Shown here: piece after piece, positions 2,340 to 10,671 of the stretch
Numbering within the stretch: position 1 is the first letter of the stretch
How the letters are laid out: each line of letters begins with the position of its first letter
Source: a virus
Virus record (IMG/VR): IMGVR_UViG_3300021354_000012
Span: 1 to 41,949 of that record
Reading direction: 5' to 3' (one strand)
Length of the DNA stretch: 41,949 nt
Made by a program: the position numbers and the translations under genes
The notes under the pieces: model-generated
What the model was told of the DNA's origin: nothing
The model's input: only the letters and a program-made list of their open reading frames with translations
Databases searched by the model: none

Positions 2340-3146
2340 TTAGTCTTTTGGTAGGATTTCGATTGAATAACCTTCGATCACTGCTGTATCCGTTGCAACT
2401 GCACTGGTATTAGTCAGCGCAATGAACGTAGTAGCAGAAGTATCGATAGCCGTGTAAACAGCAGCACCTGTAGCAACTCCACCAACCACTTGGCTAGAGT
2501 TAAAGTTTTGTGCACCGTTGTTACGGATAGCAATCATCTGCGTACCACCAGTAGACGTAGTATAAGCACCCGACTGACCAACCTGAGAAGCACCCAAATA
2601 AGTCTTGAAGGTTTTAGCACCAGCGCTGTTATTAGTGGTTTGATTCACAGTAACGCGAATCTGGCCTTGCAGACCGATAGCAGCAGCAGGAACCGTCACG
2701 TTAACCAAATAGGTTTCAGTGGTTGAACCTGTGAATGCACCGTTGGTCGTAGTAGGAGCAACCAAGGAAGTCGGGTAGAAAGGCTGGAAAGGCAGAGCAA
2801 CAGTGTTAACACCGTTTGCCACACCTTGTTTGCCAGCATAAATCTGACCAACAGTCGTGGAGGACATGATTGCAAAGTACAGACCACCTGTCGCGTCACC
2901 AACCACAGCGTTAGATGGCAAATACAGCCAGATTGCAGGGTAGATGCGCGGCAGAGCAGTACCCATGGTAATAGCGCCTGTAGTGTTCAAAGAACCTGTA
3001 GGAGCTACTGCAACCGGAATACCACCAGAACCAAGAGGTTGGTTAAAGAAGTTCAGTTGACCTTGAAGACCAAGAGTGCCTGTAACAGCGCCAGTATTGG
3101 CATCATACGTTTGGGCAGTCATGCCCTGTTTAAATACGATTGGCAT
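2340..3146 (-). CDS. Capsid-associated protein, possibly decoration/head fibre
   Basis: 268 residues, very rich in Ala, Gly, Thr, Val and Asn, with few charges: a beta-rich virion protein composition. It begins MPIVFKQGMTAQTYDANTGA and has repeated small-residue segments. It follows the major coat gene by about 50 bases, the usual place for a decoration or head-fibre gene, and ends at an intrinsic terminator. I do not recognise a named domain. The virion role is inferred from composition and position. Confidence 0.5.
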   Translation of the reverse strand: MPIVFKQGMTAQTYDANTGAVTGTLGLQGQLNFFNQPLGSGGIPVAVAPTGSLNTTGAITMGTALPRIYPAIWLYLPSNAVVGDATGGLYFAIMSSTTVGQIYAGKQGVANGVNTVALPFQPFYPTSLVAPTTTNGAFTGSTTETYLVNVTVPAAAIGLQGQIRVTVNQTTNNSAGAKTFKTYLGASQVGQSGAYTTSTGGTQMIAIRNNGAQNFNSSQVVGGVATGAAVYTAIDTSATTFIALTNTSAVATDTAVIEGYSIEILPKD

Positions 3147-3196
3147 TTTATTTTCCTTAAAAGATGAAGAACAAGGGGGTGATTAGCCCCCTACCA

Positions 3197-4357
3197 TCAT
3201 GCGAGGTAGCGCTGAACCTGTGCAGTTGCACGAGGAACAGTAACCGCAGCACCTGTGGACTGAGTGGAAGCTAGAACAGCCACACCAGCGGGGTTGCGAA
3301 CAATCAGAGTTCCTTCCATGATGTACTGGTCAAGACTTGCATCAGCATTCGAGAACACTTCGTTGTTCGGGCCAAGTTCACGCAACGAACCCCACTGGAT
3401 AACGTCAGGGTTCAGGAACAGTGCAGAGGTATTGGAAGCTCCGGTTTGATCCATGATCCAGTCATCATCGATTTGGTACGTGTAGTTGAAGTCACCTTCA
3501 TAGGTGGAAATCGTATCACCTTTATCAGCCGGATTAAAACGGTTGATAGAACGGCTGGTAGGCATCTGGTCAGAGATGTGAGTACGCATGGAAGTAGGAA
3601 CAACCATATTGGTAATCTTTGCATTGAACCGCTGTTCAGCAACCGTCACCAACTGTTTGTAGGTGAAAGGAGAGAACACTTGCATTGTTTCAGTAGCAGA
3701 ACCAAACGTGAAGTAACCCAAACCAGCATTTGCCAAGTTGCCAGCAAAAGGCTGGTTAGTCGCCGTGGCAGAAGTCACATCATTGCCGTCAGAGGTAGCA
3801 AGATTCAGTGATGCAGTACCAGAAGTAGGATTGGCAGAGCGTGTACCAGCAAATGAGTACAGCGAACCAAAACGACGACCCGTGTTAGGTGCACCACCTT
3901 GAGTTGCAGCCTGACCAGAGTACTTGATGGAAGCACCGTCAGCACGAACCATTTGCAGTTCAACGTCAAACATAATTTCAGTCAATTGCTTGACTTCTTG
4001 GTATGCCTGAGGATCACCGCCAGCTTGTTCAACAGCACGGGCAGTGCCAGTAGCACCGATAGTGGTTGTGAAGATCTGGGTGTAGTTGCCGCAGTTAGCA
4101 CGGGTGTTGTTTGCAGCGTCAGAAGACGATACACCAGCACCTTCAAGCTTCGCATTCAGAGACGGTTGACGGAAATAGTCAACAGGCCAGATGTGCAACG
4201 TAGAGTTAATCTTGCGTTTCTTACTCATCGCCATGTTGGTGATGGGTGTACGGTCTTTCACGTAGTTAGAAACAGTCAGGTCTAGGTCTTTAACAACGAT
4301 GTCGGTGTTATATGTACCAGCACCATTGCCCAAGTTAGCAGAGGTAATCGTAGCCAT
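3197..4357 (-). CDS. Major capsid protein (SU10/DUF5309 type)
   Basis: 386 residues, normal size for an HK97-fold coat. It has features of the SU10 major capsid family: an N-terminal segment leading to VKDRTPITNMAMSKKRKINS, the central QLTEIMFDVELQMVRADG helix-like stretch, and a C-terminal YQIDDDWIMDQTG...ALFLNPDVIQW followed by NVGxL-like LRELGPNNEVF. It follows the scaffold gene by 11 bases and is preceded by AAGGAGT. Order (portal, scaffold, coat) fits. Confidence is high for coat, moderate for the exact family. Confidence 0.85.
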   Translation of the reverse strand: MATITSANLGNGAGTYNTDIVVKDLDLTVSNYVKDRTPITNMAMSKKRKINSTLHIWPVDYFRQPSLNAKLEGAGVSSSDAANNTRANCGNYTQIFTTTIGATGTARAVEQAGGDPQAYQEVKQLTEIMFDVELQMVRADGASIKYSGQAATQGGAPNTGRRFGSLYSFAGTRSANPTSGTASLNLATSDGNDVTSATATNQPFAGNLANAGLGYFTFGSATETMQVFSPFTYKQLVTVAEQRFNAKITNMVVPTSMRTHISDQMPTSRSINRFNPADKGDTISTYEGDFNYTYQIDDDWIMDQTGASNTSALFLNPDVIQWGSLRELGPNNEVFSNADASLDQYIMEGTLIVRNPAGVAVLASTQSTGAAVTVPRATAQVQRYLA

Positions 4358-5811: not shown

Positions 5812-8045
5812 TAATCCATCTCCACAGCCGTTAATTTACCACGTTTGGCTGCTTGCGCAACAAACGCATTATCAGTGTCAATATCTTGTGCTTTCTTCAA
5901 ATCCAATGCGGCTTGTGCTTCTGATTTCTTCACATTGGCATTATTCAAATCAGTCTTGGATTTGGTTTCCAATGCTTCAGGTGTCGGAGGCTTTTGAGCT
6001 GCAGATTGCGCCATCTTAGCCCCCTCTGCCATAGTTGGCAAATATGCGTCAACATCCTTAACACCTAATACACGCAAAGTATCTTCAAAAGGTCTACGTA
6101 GTTTGGAGAACATCTCAGGAACTGAAGGGTCAATCTGCATCATGGCCTGAGTAAACTGCATTTGAGCCTGACTAATCATTTGTTGACGGGTTAGACGGTT
6201 CTCATCAGACAAGAAACCCAATGCCAGATCCACGTTAATCAGTTGACGGTCAATAAACTCATACCTATCCATTGAATCTGCGTCCAAGAATGGTTGACCA
6301 TTTGCTACTGCGTGAGCCAGTTGCTTAATGTTGTAGTCATCCTTGTACTGGATCATGGTCTTCCAAGTGAGATAAATCACTTCTTTAAGACCCAAAGCAC
6401 AGTTCTTGACCATTTCATCCTGGATAAGCTGATTTGGCCCCATAGCCAGTTGAAGTTTGTAGCCAGAATTGCCATCCTTCATAACCTCAGGATTCATCGT
6501 ATCGTTGGGGCTTGTCATGCCAACAATATTCATTCGGTCAGACTCAAACCGTTGCATAGCAGATTCGACATAACTCAGATTGCCCTGCATAGGCTGGAAT
6601 TCATACACATGCTTGTTCTGGTCAAACTTACGATCCAGAATAAACAAGGCAGATACTCCACGCTGCATTTCCTCTGCATCCACAAATTCAGGATTTACAC
6701 CGATACGTGGAGTAGACGCTTGCATCGCAAAGGAAATCTCAGCACGGTTAATTGCCGTACTATATTCCTGCATGGGAACCAGTCGTTCAGCCATTGAGTA
6801 ACCAAAGAAGTTACCCGTAAGTGGCTTAGGACACATATTGCCCAAAGGGATGAAGTCAACTTCCTTCGCGTAAATGACGTATGAGCCTGAATAGCAAATC
6901 TCAACAATCTCTTCTTCACCATCATTGTCAATGTCCTTACGGTTCCAGACCGTAGAGATCATTACGACATTGCTGTATTTATCAGCGCCTCGAGAAGCTA
7001 CCGCACCTTGGCCTGGGACTGGAGTTGAATCACGAGCATGAATCGCCAGATCGTTTTCCAAAGCACCTGCTTGGTAGGCTCCTGCAGGCCCATAGGCAGC
7101 GTGTTCAGCAAAAAGTTCAAGGTCTATGCTTGGGAACTGTGCTTTAGCCTCATGGATCGTCATTGGGTCGTAGAAACCACAGAAGTCCTGGTCCTGAATA
7201 CGAGGGATTGTTGGATTACATATCCAGTAGTGTTGGGCAACCTGCTTGATGCGTATGCTTGTGGAGAATCCAGTTAACTTGTATCTGGCACGGTAGATAG
7301 TGTTTGCGTTCAGCGCGTCTACTAGGTCAGCACCACTCGGTAGCGTTGGCATTCCCTGCGGAGCTTGTTGCTCAGGTAGTGGGTTATCTAGTGGATTAGG
7401 TTCCCACTGTGGATCCTCGTAATCAGTAGGTGTGGATGGCATCCCCATTGCGCCTTGAAGGTCCACATCAATCTTACGCATCTGTTGACGCTTGGCAGTA
7501 AGACCTTTGTCAGCAGCCATGATCTCAAAAGACCGTAACTGATCACGAGTACCTTCTACTTCCTTGTATTGCGTTATCTTGTCCCGCACAGGTGACACCA
7601 TGACAATACCGTTTTTATGCAGTAATGCATCCTGCGCCCAATCACGTACAAATTGGTAAGAATCATTCTTACTGTTGAGCATGTACTTGACCATCTCTGT
7701 GGCTTGATTGGATGCAGTCACATCTGTTTCTGCAAACCTCTCAAACTCAAAGTTAATCTTTCCACTAGGCATTAGACACTTTGTCACCACTGCCGTGGCG
7801 TAATCCACTCCGGGGGTTACTACAGGATGAATATAATCAATACCTCGAATTGGCTCTGTAGAATTGGATACAGGGATGTTTAGATAGTGATAATCTGACA
7901 TCCTATTGATAGCATTCTTAGCTTGAGTCAACCTCAGGTAGTCAACCATCTTCACGTAAGCTTCATGCGCTACTTTGGCAATGACACTGTCTTTACCATC
8001 AGGCGATGTAATCCCCTGTACGATTACATTCTGTTTATCAAGCAT
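5811..8045 (-). CDS. Portal protein
   Basis: 744 residues, in the size range of P22/SU10-type portals. Recognisable stretches include YHYLNIPVSN and GIDYIHPVVTPGVDYATAVV near the N-terminus, YDPMTIHEAKAQFP in the wing, FFGYSMAERLVPMQEYSTAI and the following stem-like helix, then RQLINVDLALGFLSDENRLT. The last about 70 residues are Ala/Lys/Gln-rich helix, as in a barrel or tail extension. It lies 9 bases after TerL and before scaffold and coat. It forms the dodecameric DNA channel at the head vertex. Confidence 0.85.
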   Translation of the reverse strand: MLDKQNVIVQGITSPDGKDSVIAKVAHEAYVKMVDYLRLTQAKNAINRMSDYHYLNIPVSNSTEPIRGIDYIHPVVTPGVDYATAVVTKCLMPSGKINFEFERFAETDVTASNQATEMVKYMLNSKNDSYQFVRDWAQDALLHKNGIVMVSPVRDKITQYKEVEGTRDQLRSFEIMAADKGLTAKRQQMRKIDVDLQGAMGMPSTPTDYEDPQWEPNPLDNPLPEQQAPQGMPTLPSGADLVDALNANTIYRARYKLTGFSTSIRIKQVAQHYWICNPTIPRIQDQDFCGFYDPMTIHEAKAQFPSIDLELFAEHAAYGPAGAYQAGALENDLAIHARDSTPVPGQGAVASRGADKYSNVVMISTVWNRKDIDNDGEEEIVEICYSGSYVIYAKEVDFIPLGNMCPKPLTGNFFGYSMAERLVPMQEYSTAINRAEISFAMQASTPRIGVNPEFVDAEEMQRGVSALFILDRKFDQNKHVYEFQPMQGNLSYVESAMQRFESDRMNIVGMTSPNDTMNPEVMKDGNSGYKLQLAMGPNQLIQDEMVKNCALGLKEVIYLTWKTMIQYKDDYNIKQLAHAVANGQPFLDADSMDRYEFIDRQLINVDLALGFLSDENRLTRQQMISQAQMQFTQAMMQIDPSVPEMFSKLRRPFEDTLRVLGVKDVDAYLPTMAEGAKMAQSAAQKPPTPEALETKSKTDLNNANVKKSEAQAALDLKKAQDIDTDNAFVAQAAKRGKLTAVEMD

Positions 8046-8054
8046 GATTTTTTC

Positions 8055-10496
8055 TCATATACGTTGGAGTTTGCCCTCTACGGGTGCTGGTCTACGGAAG
8101 GCAAAGGTATTAGCCCGACTAACGACAGACTCTCCATGACCCTGAATAAGGGCCAATACACCAATACGAGCAGAGTCAATATGGTCATCTTTTCCTAAAA
8201 ACTTGCCATTTTCATCGATAGCATAATTCCGAGCTTCATCCAGAAACTGCGTACATGCTTCATTGATCATAAATGTACCACGCTCCAAACCTAAACGTAT
8301 AACATTAATGCCATACGCTTTAAACATAGTAACCTTGCCCTGATCGTTTGCGGGGTTCATAACAGCACCAGAGATAACATTCAACCCGTAGTTATCTTCA
8401 AATACTTCCCGCACTGATTGTTCCGTCAACGTATATCGTCCAGCCTGTCCTGCATCATGGGGGAGCGCAATCGGAACCCCTTTGGATTCCCTGTCCATCA
8501 GGTAATGAACATATTCATCAGGAGTTGCGCCTTGTTCTACCGTCACTTGTCGATGGAGATAGATAATTTCTTCTACAGGATTCATAAAGAAAAATGAGAT
8601 CACCGTCGGATCGTTCTTAATCCCTAAGTCAAACGAAATGAGCCGCTCCATCTTGGGATCATTCTTCAAGTCAATATCGGTAGACTTGTAGATAGGCCAT
8701 GAAAGCATTGGGAAGACAACTCCCTTACCAACCATTGGGATACCGTTAATCCGGCATTCTCTTTCCCAAGGCATAAAGTCTCTGGAGAGTTGGTCCCGTT
8801 CTTTCTGAGAGAAGAACTCCTCCCCCCATTCGTTTACAAAAGGAATATCGCTCCATCCAACCCTGACATGGGTATAGCCTTCAATATTGTCCCAGAACTT
8901 TCTCACAAGTCCTGACATACCCTTCAGGGGAGTGAAGGAACACAGGACTTGTCCGTTTCTGGCGGCAGTACGTACCACCAACTCCGAGAAAGTCTCGTCC
9001 GGTGGTTGCTCGTCGAGGACGATGAGGTCAAGCTCGAATCCTTGGAGGTGCCGGACTTGTTGCGTGTAGTTGGAGAAGTAGAGTTTGGACTTACCACCTG
9101 AGGCGTGTTTAACCTCGATGGAAAGCACGTTTGCTCCGTCGGTTCGTATGCTTTTGTCATCGATGGCATCCCTTGGTATTGATCCTGTACCAAGTTTATA
9201 TCCTTGCTTGATATCATCACATCCCAAAAGCTTGTTTTGTAGTGTTTTTGCAACCTGTTCCCATGATTCACCTGCACACATGCAGATAATAGGCTGGTCC
9301 CAAACCTTACCTTTCCACCATTTTGGATATCTTCCAGTCAAATGGTAAGCAGCTTCAAAGGTAGATGCGACAGTGTTGTGATGAACAATTCCACAGCTAA
9401 TATAGTTTTCTGTTTCAGGAACAGTGAAATCATATACATCATGGATCCCAATAGGTTCGTATGCTACAATCTGATTACCACCAGTCGCAAAAGGAGATAG
9501 CAATGAAGGCAATTCAGTTTGACATTGACCAGCTACGAGATTTGATTGAAGTCCAACAGATGCAGCAACACAAAGTCGCTGTAATGCTTGGAGTTCACTG
9601 TTCAACAATTGAAAGGATTTGTCGGAAACTCGGTTTAAAAACTCAAAGAACTGGACCGAGAGGTGGCGAGTTACATCCAGAGTGGAAGGGAGGAAGAACG
9701 ATGATAAAAGGGTATTGGTATGTTTATTCCCCTGAACACCCAAACAGGACAAAAAAGAATCGTGTTTCAGAGCATCAACTTGTAGCTGAAAAAACCCTTG
9801 GACGTTATTTGTTGCCTTCAGAAGTCGTTCACCACATAAACGGGATACCGACAGACAACCGACCAGAAAACCTTGCAGTTTTTCAGACAAACGCAGACCA
9901 TTTACGTCATGAATTGACAGATCGCGTACCGAATTGGACTCCTGAAGGTTTGGCAGCGATTGAAGCAGGGATTCACAAAAGACGTATTCAGCTTTTGAGT
10001 TCAAAACGCGATGCCCAAGGGCGGCTTCTATCCAACGACCATCAGACATCCATAAACGAACACAAGGTTCTTTAGGCTTTTTAATGGGTTGAATGGCAGT
10101 TTTAATGACTGCTTTCTCTCCATCCCATGACCAAACCTCAAAGGACTCGCCGCGCTCATACATCTCACCATAAGTGATTTGTTTTCCATTAGGAAGATCA
10201 AGAACTGTTGCTGCCGTACAACATTTTCCTGTGCGGTTCCCAGCGATCATCCCCCGTCTTGCATGGGATTCACCTGTTTCAAAAAACTTGTTTTGATATG
10301 GGAAAGGCCTGAACCACTTCAACTGGTTGAACTGCATATCTTTTGCGATAGCAGTTCTGGTCTTTTGCATTAACTTGAGTTGATCAGGAGTCAGGTTCTT
10401 GATGGCAGATTTACCACCAGCCATCTTAACAAGGTGCTTTATGGCACGTTGCTTGTATATGGTTTGGATGTAATCGGATGCTTCACTCTTTGCCAT
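8055..10496 (-). CDS. Terminase large subunit interrupted by an intein
   Basis: 813 codons, of which 530 remain after removal of the intein at residues 92-374. The packaging ATPase has Walker A GNRTGK (86-91) joined after splicing to T375-V-A-S, and Walker B LIVLDE (491-496) followed by QPPDETF. The coupling motif CSFTPLKG is near 519-526. The C-terminal nuclease has acidic residues in FDLG (D623), HDAGQ (D681) and KDDHIDSAR (D770-D774). The ATG at 10496 overlaps the preceding gene by 14 bases. Without splicing the P-loop Lys-Thr pair is separated, so unspliced precursor should be unable to package DNA. Confidence 0.93.
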   Translation of the reverse strand: MAKSEASDYIQTIYKQRAIKHLVKMAGGKSAIKNLTPDQLKLMQKTRTAIAKDMQFNQLKWFRPFPYQNKFFETGESHARRGMIAGNRTGKCCTAATVLDLPNGKQITYGEMYERGESFEVWSWDGEKAVIKTAIQPIKKPKEPCVRLWMSDGRWIEAALGHRVLNSKAEYVFCESLLQSLPNLQESNSVRDLSIHDVNGLRLSEKLQGFLVGCLSVSRLCGERLLKATNNVQGFFQLQVDALKHDSFLSCLGVQGNKHTNTLLSSFFLPSTLDVTRHLSVQFFEFLNRVSDKSFQLLNSELQALQRLCVAASVGLQSNLVAGQCQTELPSLLSPFATGGNQIVAYEPIGIHDVYDFTVPETENYISCGIVHHNTVASTFEAAYHLTGRYPKWWKGKVWDQPIICMCAGESWEQVAKTLQNKLLGCDDIKQGYKLGTGSIPRDAIDDKSIRTDGANVLSIEVKHASGGKSKLYFSNYTQQVRHLQGFELDLIVLDEQPPDETFSELVVRTAARNGQVLCSFTPLKGMSGLVRKFWDNIEGYTHVRVGWSDIPFVNEWGEEFFSQKERDQLSRDFMPWERECRINGIPMVGKGVVFPMLSWPIYKSTDIDLKNDPKMERLISFDLGIKNDPTVISFFFMNPVEEIIYLHRQVTVEQGATPDEYVHYLMDRESKGVPIALPHDAGQAGRYTLTEQSVREVFEDNYGLNVISGAVMNPANDQGKVTMFKAYGINVIRLGLERGTFMINEACTQFLDEARNYAIDENGKFLGKDDHIDSARIGVLALIQGHGESVVSRANTFAFRRPAPVEGKLQRI
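9375..10223 (-). mobile_element. Intein in the TerL Walker A motif
   Basis: A 283-residue in-frame insertion between K91 and T375 of TerL. Block A begins at Cys92 (CCTAATVLDLPNG). Block B is around SDGRWIEAALGHRVL with His162, though the usual Thr of TxxH is Ala159. Block F is DVYDFTVPETENYI (353-366) and block G is SCGIVHHN (367-374), followed by Thr as the +1 nucleophile. This is a class 1 layout (Cys1, penultimate His, terminal Asn). No in-frame endonuclease motif is present; residues 141-332 are the antisense of the HNH gene at 9503-10075. The remaining coding of about 130 residues matches a mini-intein. Confidence 0.92.
9503..10075 (+). CDS. HNH homing endonuclease encoded antisense inside the TerL intein
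   Basis: 190 residues from an ATG preceded by AAAAGGAGAT with 6-base spacing. An upstream in-frame ATG at 9461 lacks this site, so 9503 is preferred. Residues 24-46 form a helix-turn-helix (VAVMLGVHCSTIERICRKLG). Residues 91-136 are an HNH_3 domain: SEHQLVAEKTLGRYL, then VVHHING (His110, His111, Asn113), then DNRPENL with Asn119, and a C-terminal HLRHEL. The whole gene lies opposite intein codons 141-332 of TerL. It probably cleaves inteinless terL alleles to drive homing; that function is inferred from family and location. Confidence 0.9.
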   Translation: MKAIQFDIDQLRDLIEVQQMQQHKVAVMLGVHCSTIERICRKLGLKTQRTGPRGGELHPEWKGGRTMIKGYWYVYSPEHPNRTKKNRVSEHQLVAEKTLGRYLLPSEVVHHINGIPTDNRPENLAVFQTNADHLRHELTDRVPNWTPEGLAAIEAGIHKRRIQLLSSKRDAQGRLLSNDHQTSINEHKVL

Positions 10497-10671
10497 ACAT
10501 GTCGCGGATATTCAGCAGTAACTTTGCTGCTGTGGACAGGTGGTATATCTCTTCAGGGTTAAGCTTTTGGTCCCCTTGAAGGTCTTTTTGCAACCATTCA
10601 AGGGTCTTTCTAGCACAAACCTCTGCTTGAGTAGGCAGGAATTCTTTGAACCTGTCCTTATATTCACTCAT
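10483..10671 (-). CDS. Small helical protein preceding TerL
   Basis: 62 residues from the ATG at 10671 (MSEYKDRFKEFLP); a TTG two codons upstream is less likely. That ATG forms an ATGA overlap with the stop of the upstream gene, and the gene ends 14 bases inside terL, so all three are coupled. Highly helical (TRKTLEWLQ-like and IYHLSTAAKLLLNIRD segments). Position makes it a candidate packaging accessory or unusually short small terminase, but no signature supports this. Confidence 0.65.
   Translation of the reverse strand: MSEYKDRFKEFLPTQAEVCARKTLEWLQKDLQGDQKLNPEEIYHLSTAAKLLLNIRDMYGKE

Follow-up and report, generated by a model that had tools for sequence, protein, structure and literature searches.

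A putative mobile intein in a phage terminase gene with its predicted homing endonuclease encoded on the opposite strand

The virus contig IMGVR_UViG_3300021354_000012 (IMG/VR), whose entire 41,949 nt form the window analyzed here, carries a terminase large subunit gene (terL) that appears to be interrupted at its Walker A motif by an intein and, inside that intein, a putative HNH endonuclease gene that runs in the opposite direction. This arrangement raises the question of whether splicing and homing, the pair of activities that a mobile intein combines, can be divided between two genes on the two strands of the same DNA, or whether one of the two frames no longer has such a role. We favor the former with a probability of about 0.87: the locus would be a mobile intein of new architecture, with a HINT splicing domain in the terminase frame and a separate HTH-HNH_3 endonuclease encoded opposite to it. 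Splicing, cleavage, homing and transcription of the HNH gene are steps that we infer from sequence. The terL gene, which adjoins a SU10-type portal gene, is divided as follows (a slash marks the insertion point).

8055-10496, minus strand: terL, terminase large subunit gene with the in-frame intein; one open frame of 813 codons plus stop
10224-10496, minus strand: TerL N-extein, residues 1-91, ending GMIAGNRTGK
9375-10223, minus strand: predicted intein of 283 aa (C1...VHHN) at Walker A K/T, from PF14890, TIGR01443 and 47 empty alleles
9939-10223, minus strand: N-terminal splicing block of the intein, residues 1-95, with nucleophile C1 and conserved H71; pLDDT 92-97 to residue 90, codon position 3 fastest
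9477-9938, minus strand: antisense-coded linker of the intein (residues 96-249), most of it predicted to be disordered; pLDDT mostly 40-70, codon position 2 fastest
9375-9476, minus strand: C-terminal splicing block of the intein, residues 250-283, with H282 and N283; TIGR01443, pLDDT 93-97

The intein would comprise TerL residues C92-N374, between K91 and T375, leaving 530 extein residues. Its borders, proposed in the original prediction, are fixed to the codon because 47 uninterrupted TerL alleles (46 viral contigs and one phage record) run through Walker A at the predicted point with a continuous GMIAANR[AS]GKT. The window residues that precede the intein are AGNRTGK (10224-10253), and all 47 uninterrupted alleles (L001-L046, L128) have AANR[AS]GK. 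The intein alone matched PF14890 (Intein_splicing) at E=4.5e-7 and 30.2 bits, which is under the Pfam cut-off of 35.8, and TIGR01443 (intein_Cterm) at 22.8 bits, over the cut-off of 15.6. In the PDB, a profile built from the family matched the inteins of Ssp DnaB (1mi8; E=1.8e-19) and Mtu RecA. Residues 1-90 and 251-283 of the AlphaFold model have a pLDDT of 92-97, with the middle mostly at 40-70, and Foldseek matches to the model are mini-inteins at E of about 1e-6 (for example Npu DnaE, 4kl5; TM 0.86 by target). The model thus has a confidently predicted HINT fold, with disorder across the antisense-coded middle. The class 1 splicing residues are present (C1, block B H71, penultimate H282, terminal N283 and T at +1), and the first four are kept at 90% or more in a 56-row intein alignment. 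By its splicing residues, HINT fold, in-frame position and precise absence from relatives, we identify the insertion as a cis-splicing class 1 intein that is predicted to splice.

Three other kinds of element were considered and rejected: (i) a split intein or fractured gene, since TerL is a single open frame; (ii) a conventional large intein with an in-frame endonuclease, since the HNH gene is on the opposite strand and none of 59 full-length relatives has a same-strand HNH; and (iii) a group I or II RNA intron with a homing endonuclease gene, since Rfam gave no match at E<=1 in 8000-10600.

The features on the other strand are:

9503-10075, plus strand: HNH_3 homing-type endonuclease gene (predicted), 190 aa, nested antisense in the intein; PF13392, phrog_7545 (E=1.9e-25), 69-row alignment, AlphaFold (AF2) model
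9489-9498, plus strand: Shine-Dalgarno sequence AAAAGGAGAT of the HNH gene, read directly
9524-9631, plus strand: residues 8-43 of the HNH protein, a three-helix, HTH-like N-terminal part with a putative role in DNA binding; AF2 model, weak RWP-RK/HTH matches
9773-9883 (approximate), plus strand: HNH_3 motif EHQLVAEKTLGRYLLPSEVVHHINGIPTDNRPENLAV, residues 91-127; PF13392
9939-10075, both strands: double-coding stretch in which the variable C-terminal tail of the HNH protein (plus) lies over intein block B (minus; H71 codon at 10011-10013)

The antisense HNH_3 gene with its own Shine-Dalgarno sequence was likewise borne out: the frame matched PF13392 at 37.7 bits (cut-off 24.8; E=1.6e-9). Catalytic residues H111, N119 and N123 are invariant in the 69-sequence alignment, and in the AF2 model (mean pLDDT 91) three helices at the N terminus are followed by the HNH region and, at the C terminus, by one long helix. 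Foldseek with this model returned nothing at E<=0.001, only HTH-like fragments. Motif and catalytic residues thus predict an HTH-HNH_3 endonuclease of the homing type. It had been proposed that this gene fills the slot usually held by an in-frame endonuclease domain. That is correct for its conserved core, which faces the intein middle; its variable C-terminal tail extends further and overlaps block B.

To what extent does this layout recur? An HNH-first search through collections of viruses, genomes and phages scored 254 HNH matches, and in 113 of these one antisense frame holds intein N- and C-block matches on either side of the HNH; the window is counted twice among them, leaving 112 distinct loci, some of them copies of one contig. 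The antisense phase was identical in 112/112. Nestedness is part of the hit definition in this search, which therefore presupposes it, so a second search was run from the intein N block alone (A3/A4 alignments against viral contigs), without HNH sequence. This intein-first search yielded 118 loci, 67 of them non-redundant: 59 full-length inteins and 8 mini-inteins. All 59 full-length inteins (276-340 aa) have an antisense HNH of more than 100 bits in the same phase, and 0/59 have one on the same strand. The mini-inteins (127-148 aa) have lost the HNH, with one of the eight retaining a fragment. Pooled, both searches gave 118 non-redundant nested cases. The intein query found only weak matches, to Gordonia terminases, among phage records, and a plasmid search found HNH matches only, each covering at most 66% of the query.

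The antisense-endonuclease layout thus recurs in about 120 distinct insertions, in phages and in some bacterial ATPase genes; the original prediction understated a large, apparently mobile family. Where the HNH has been lost in this family, it has been cleanly deleted to leave a mini-intein, and the opposite pattern, HNH frames regularly broken within preserved inteins, was not found. The sole decayed full-length case seen is a single in-frame stop in a nested HNH (L338:4581-4583) whose intein frame is intact. Five inteins (L263, L266, L268, L272 and L279) end QKN/SGKT rather than with HHN, the penultimate His being replaced by Lys. One HNH that falls within the nested part of the tree has no intein found around it (L278:516-989); it has possibly escaped or relocated.

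The exteins are mainly terminases of several families (Terminase_6N/6C, Terminase_3). Others match a SNF2-type helicase (L132), a DnaG-Toprim-MCM protein (L065), a Strawberry-notch helicase from Polaromonas (L134), an SMC protein (L271, below cut-off) and an SbcC-like protein (L275, weak). Insertion is almost always within Walker A, either at GK/T, the site used in the window, or a few residues before it, at x/SGK. One contig of the Polaromonas sp. CG9_12 chromosome carries two HNH relatives (L134 and L141), one of them nested in the intein of the Strawberry-notch-type helicase. A contig that already has the Walker A intein (L053) probably has a second intein at its TerL nuclease motif (KKNDH/CLTGDT, C block 2721-2825), the halves of which may differ in frame. 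Related elements occur in nine named isolates: Pectobacterium phages Ymer, Abuela, Sabo, Koroua, Amona, Taid and Pappous, Dickeya phage Setonix and Pseudoalteromonas phage PHS3. Ymer and PHS3 were verified frame by frame and the other seven by sequence match. These two records illustrate an annotation blind spot, in that pipelines retain either the terminase or the HNH: the Ymer record (L127, OP748252.2) lists terL as a hypothetical protein and misses the HNH, and the PHS3 record (L408:1703-3826, KX912252.1) calls the HNH (2968-3678) and truncates TerL, of which a 708-codon frame crosses the HNH.

Sequence comparisons show both frames to be preserved. Synonymous shuffling of the window HNH gene leaves a mean of 7.3 antisense stops, and 0/5000 shuffles were stop-free, so the earlier estimate that such an open frame arises by chance about once in 10,000 was not overstated. 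Among the 19,824 intein-frame codons opposite the 118 non-redundant nested HNH genes there is not one stop, against 601 expected from synonymous shuffling; per 100 codons, stops number 3.1 and 5.2 in the other two antisense phases of these genes, and 4.57 in the corresponding phase of 127 free-standing HNH relatives. From 21 independent pairs, we measured differences at intein codon positions 1/2/3, obtaining.129/.092/.364 in the N block,.140/.306/.112 in the HNH overlap and.122/.124/.275 in the C block; extein differences peak at position 3 (.496). In the overlap, therefore, intein position 2 (the HNH wobble position) is the fastest and intein position 3 (HNH position 2) the slowest. On this same DNA, amino acid identity is 0.82 for the HNH and 0.63 for the intein frame, with the HNH higher in 21/21 pairs. 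Because of the codon-position switch and this difference in identity, we conclude that the intein middle is selected as HNH and, as intein, merely kept stop-free; the low pLDDT of most of this middle in the AlphaFold model fits that conclusion. The excess at position 3 in the N and C blocks in turn indicates selection on the splicing domain.

These measurements bear on two alternatives. According to the first, the HNH frame is a non-translated relic: the antisense of coding DNA is often open, and the middle would be an old linker. Such a reading would fit the stop in L338 and some observations on expression. A search of the plus strand around the window HNH gene gave no sigma-70-like promoter, and an SD-like motif is present in 59/118 family members, only half, against 27/118 controls. 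The codon-position switch disfavors a dead frame, however, as do the higher conservation of the HNH protein in every pair, its invariant catalytic residues and its confidently predicted fold, and we consider a relic very improbable. Independent translation of the window HNH from its own SD is plausible. The proposal that the HNH is made early from plus-strand transcripts found no support: in addition to the missing promoter, the genes recognized on either side of the HNH are minus-strand genes, and the replication genes encoded on the plus strand are situated downstream, at about 22.6-28 kb.

The second alternative is that the insertion no longer splices and that the HNH is a parasitic gene within terL. 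HNH insertions of the ShiLan type, which lack intein blocks, have been described (PMC11855218), giving this idea a precedent. It is disfavored because the splicing blocks are under selection; moreover, C1, H71, H282 and N283 are retained, the intein frame is never broken, and the site is the Walker A motif of an essential enzyme. We give it about the same slight chance as the relic. A hidden HNH of the ShiLan type is in any case not what the window contains, since the HNH is on the opposite strand and a HINT domain is present.

The HNH could instead be a packaging partner of TerL, like HK97 gp74, placed beside terL for packaging and not for homing. HNH proteins encoded next to the terminase are known to take part in packaging (Kala et al., cited in PMC10448857). 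We regard this as the least probable of the readings weighed here, because no convincing HNH relative turned up in the flanks of 48 loci (480 kb) from relatives without the insertion; in addition, the element also occurs in helicase-, SMC- and primase-type genes, and near-identical copies are common to diverged terL genes.

Those copies also argue for mobility. In three members of the window's own TerL family (L211/L373/L374), intein DNA is 97-98.5% identical where extein DNA is 80-82% identical, and identity falls to about 0.8 at both intein borders. The gap is smaller in L370/L371 (90% intein against 80% extein). For the window intein, identity to its relatives is 70-73%, much as for its extein, and by this measure the window copy is not a recent arrival. 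Since the flanks of the recently moved copies show no clear extended tract of raised identity, we infer, rather than observe, transfer by break repair. A link across host genes points the same way: in the HNH tree, the HNH nested in the DnaG-MCM gene (L065) and the one nested in a terminase gene (L069) are sisters (SH-aLRT 95). From these comparisons, and given the 47 empty alleles, the elements are apparently mobile and actively spreading.

The origin of the layout is a separate matter. Instead of one ancient nested element, HNH genes may have inserted repeatedly and independently into existing inteins, a rival on origin only and compatible with the mechanism that we favor. In the HNH tree, nested HNHs do not form a single supported clade (at least two changes are forced and four are needed), as repeated insertion would predict. 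Yet the antisense phase is identical in every case, and HNH and intein distances correlate (rho 0.51; Mantel 0/300 permutations) more than the common history of the exteins explains (partial rank correlation, controlling for the extein, 0.34). Repeated insertion is thus unlikely, if less so than the three alternatives above.

The mechanism that we propose, that of a mobile intein with its endonuclease on the opposite strand, would operate as follows. The two HINT blocks would excise the intein and rejoin TerL at Walker A, and the residues between the blocks would form an unconstrained loop of which the sole demand is that it contain no stops. The HNH, made from the other strand, would recognize and cut the Walker A DNA of uninterrupted alleles, and repair off the occupied allele would copy the entire element into the cut allele. 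More broadly, it is likely that the family represents a widespread, undescribed class of mobile inteins with splicing and homing on opposite strands in one fixed phase, which targets Walker A of phage terminases and other P-loop ATPases and in which expression of the homing enzyme is uncoupled from the host gene. Consistent with the earlier statement that no such family was known, we found no description of an antisense-endonuclease intein in the literature searched, which covered few subscription papers or preprints, so this absence is no proof.

The element matters for several reasons. Two functions of a mobile intein are split over two genes and two strands, and therefore expression and loss of the endonuclease need not, in principle, be tied to splicing. 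The family also provides a sizeable natural collection of genes with antisense double coding, in which constraint is measurable strand by strand, and its 118 non-redundant insertions, nearly all of them at P-loop motifs, are a basis for working out how the HNH chooses its target. The nine named phage isolate records make the element testable now.

Among known systems, the mycobacteriophage TerL1-a inteins, which lie at Walker A K/T, are large inteins with an in-frame endonuclease domain (Kelley et al. 2016, PMC5050341). They share with the element described here the two-block HINT domain, the TerL P-loop site and the position of the endonuclease between the blocks. Here, however, the endonuclease is outside the intein polypeptide, in a separate gene on the opposite strand, and the matching intein residues are a predicted disordered loop. 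The ShiLan domain of a phage methylase, proposed to be parasitic, and the Pacc40 insertion resemble our element in hiding an HNH within an insertion that keeps a phage host gene open, but their HNH is on the same strand in another frame and no splicing domain was detected in them (PMC11855218). In the Didymium nuclear group I intron, the gene for homing endonuclease I-DsqI is antisense, and its expression and its cleavage of the empty site have been demonstrated (PMC9548176). Both are self-splicing elements (here by prediction) with the endonuclease gene on the opposite strand; unlike the window intein, the Didymium element is RNA in eukaryotic rDNA, encodes a His-Cys box enzyme and has no protein frame to keep open. 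Here a protein intein lies in a protein-coding gene, and therefore both strands are coding. Free-standing phage HNH_3 homing endonucleases (I-HmuI type, 1u3e) similarly combine the HNH_3 motif with an added DNA-binding part; ours differs in being nested in an intein with an antisense frame that stays open. Finally, fractured genes, in which split inteins have an intervening endonuclease gene, were reportedly described by Dassa and colleagues in 2009. They too have an endonuclease gene separate from the intein polypeptide, but there the host gene is in two parts with a split intein, whereas TerL and its intein form one continuous frame.
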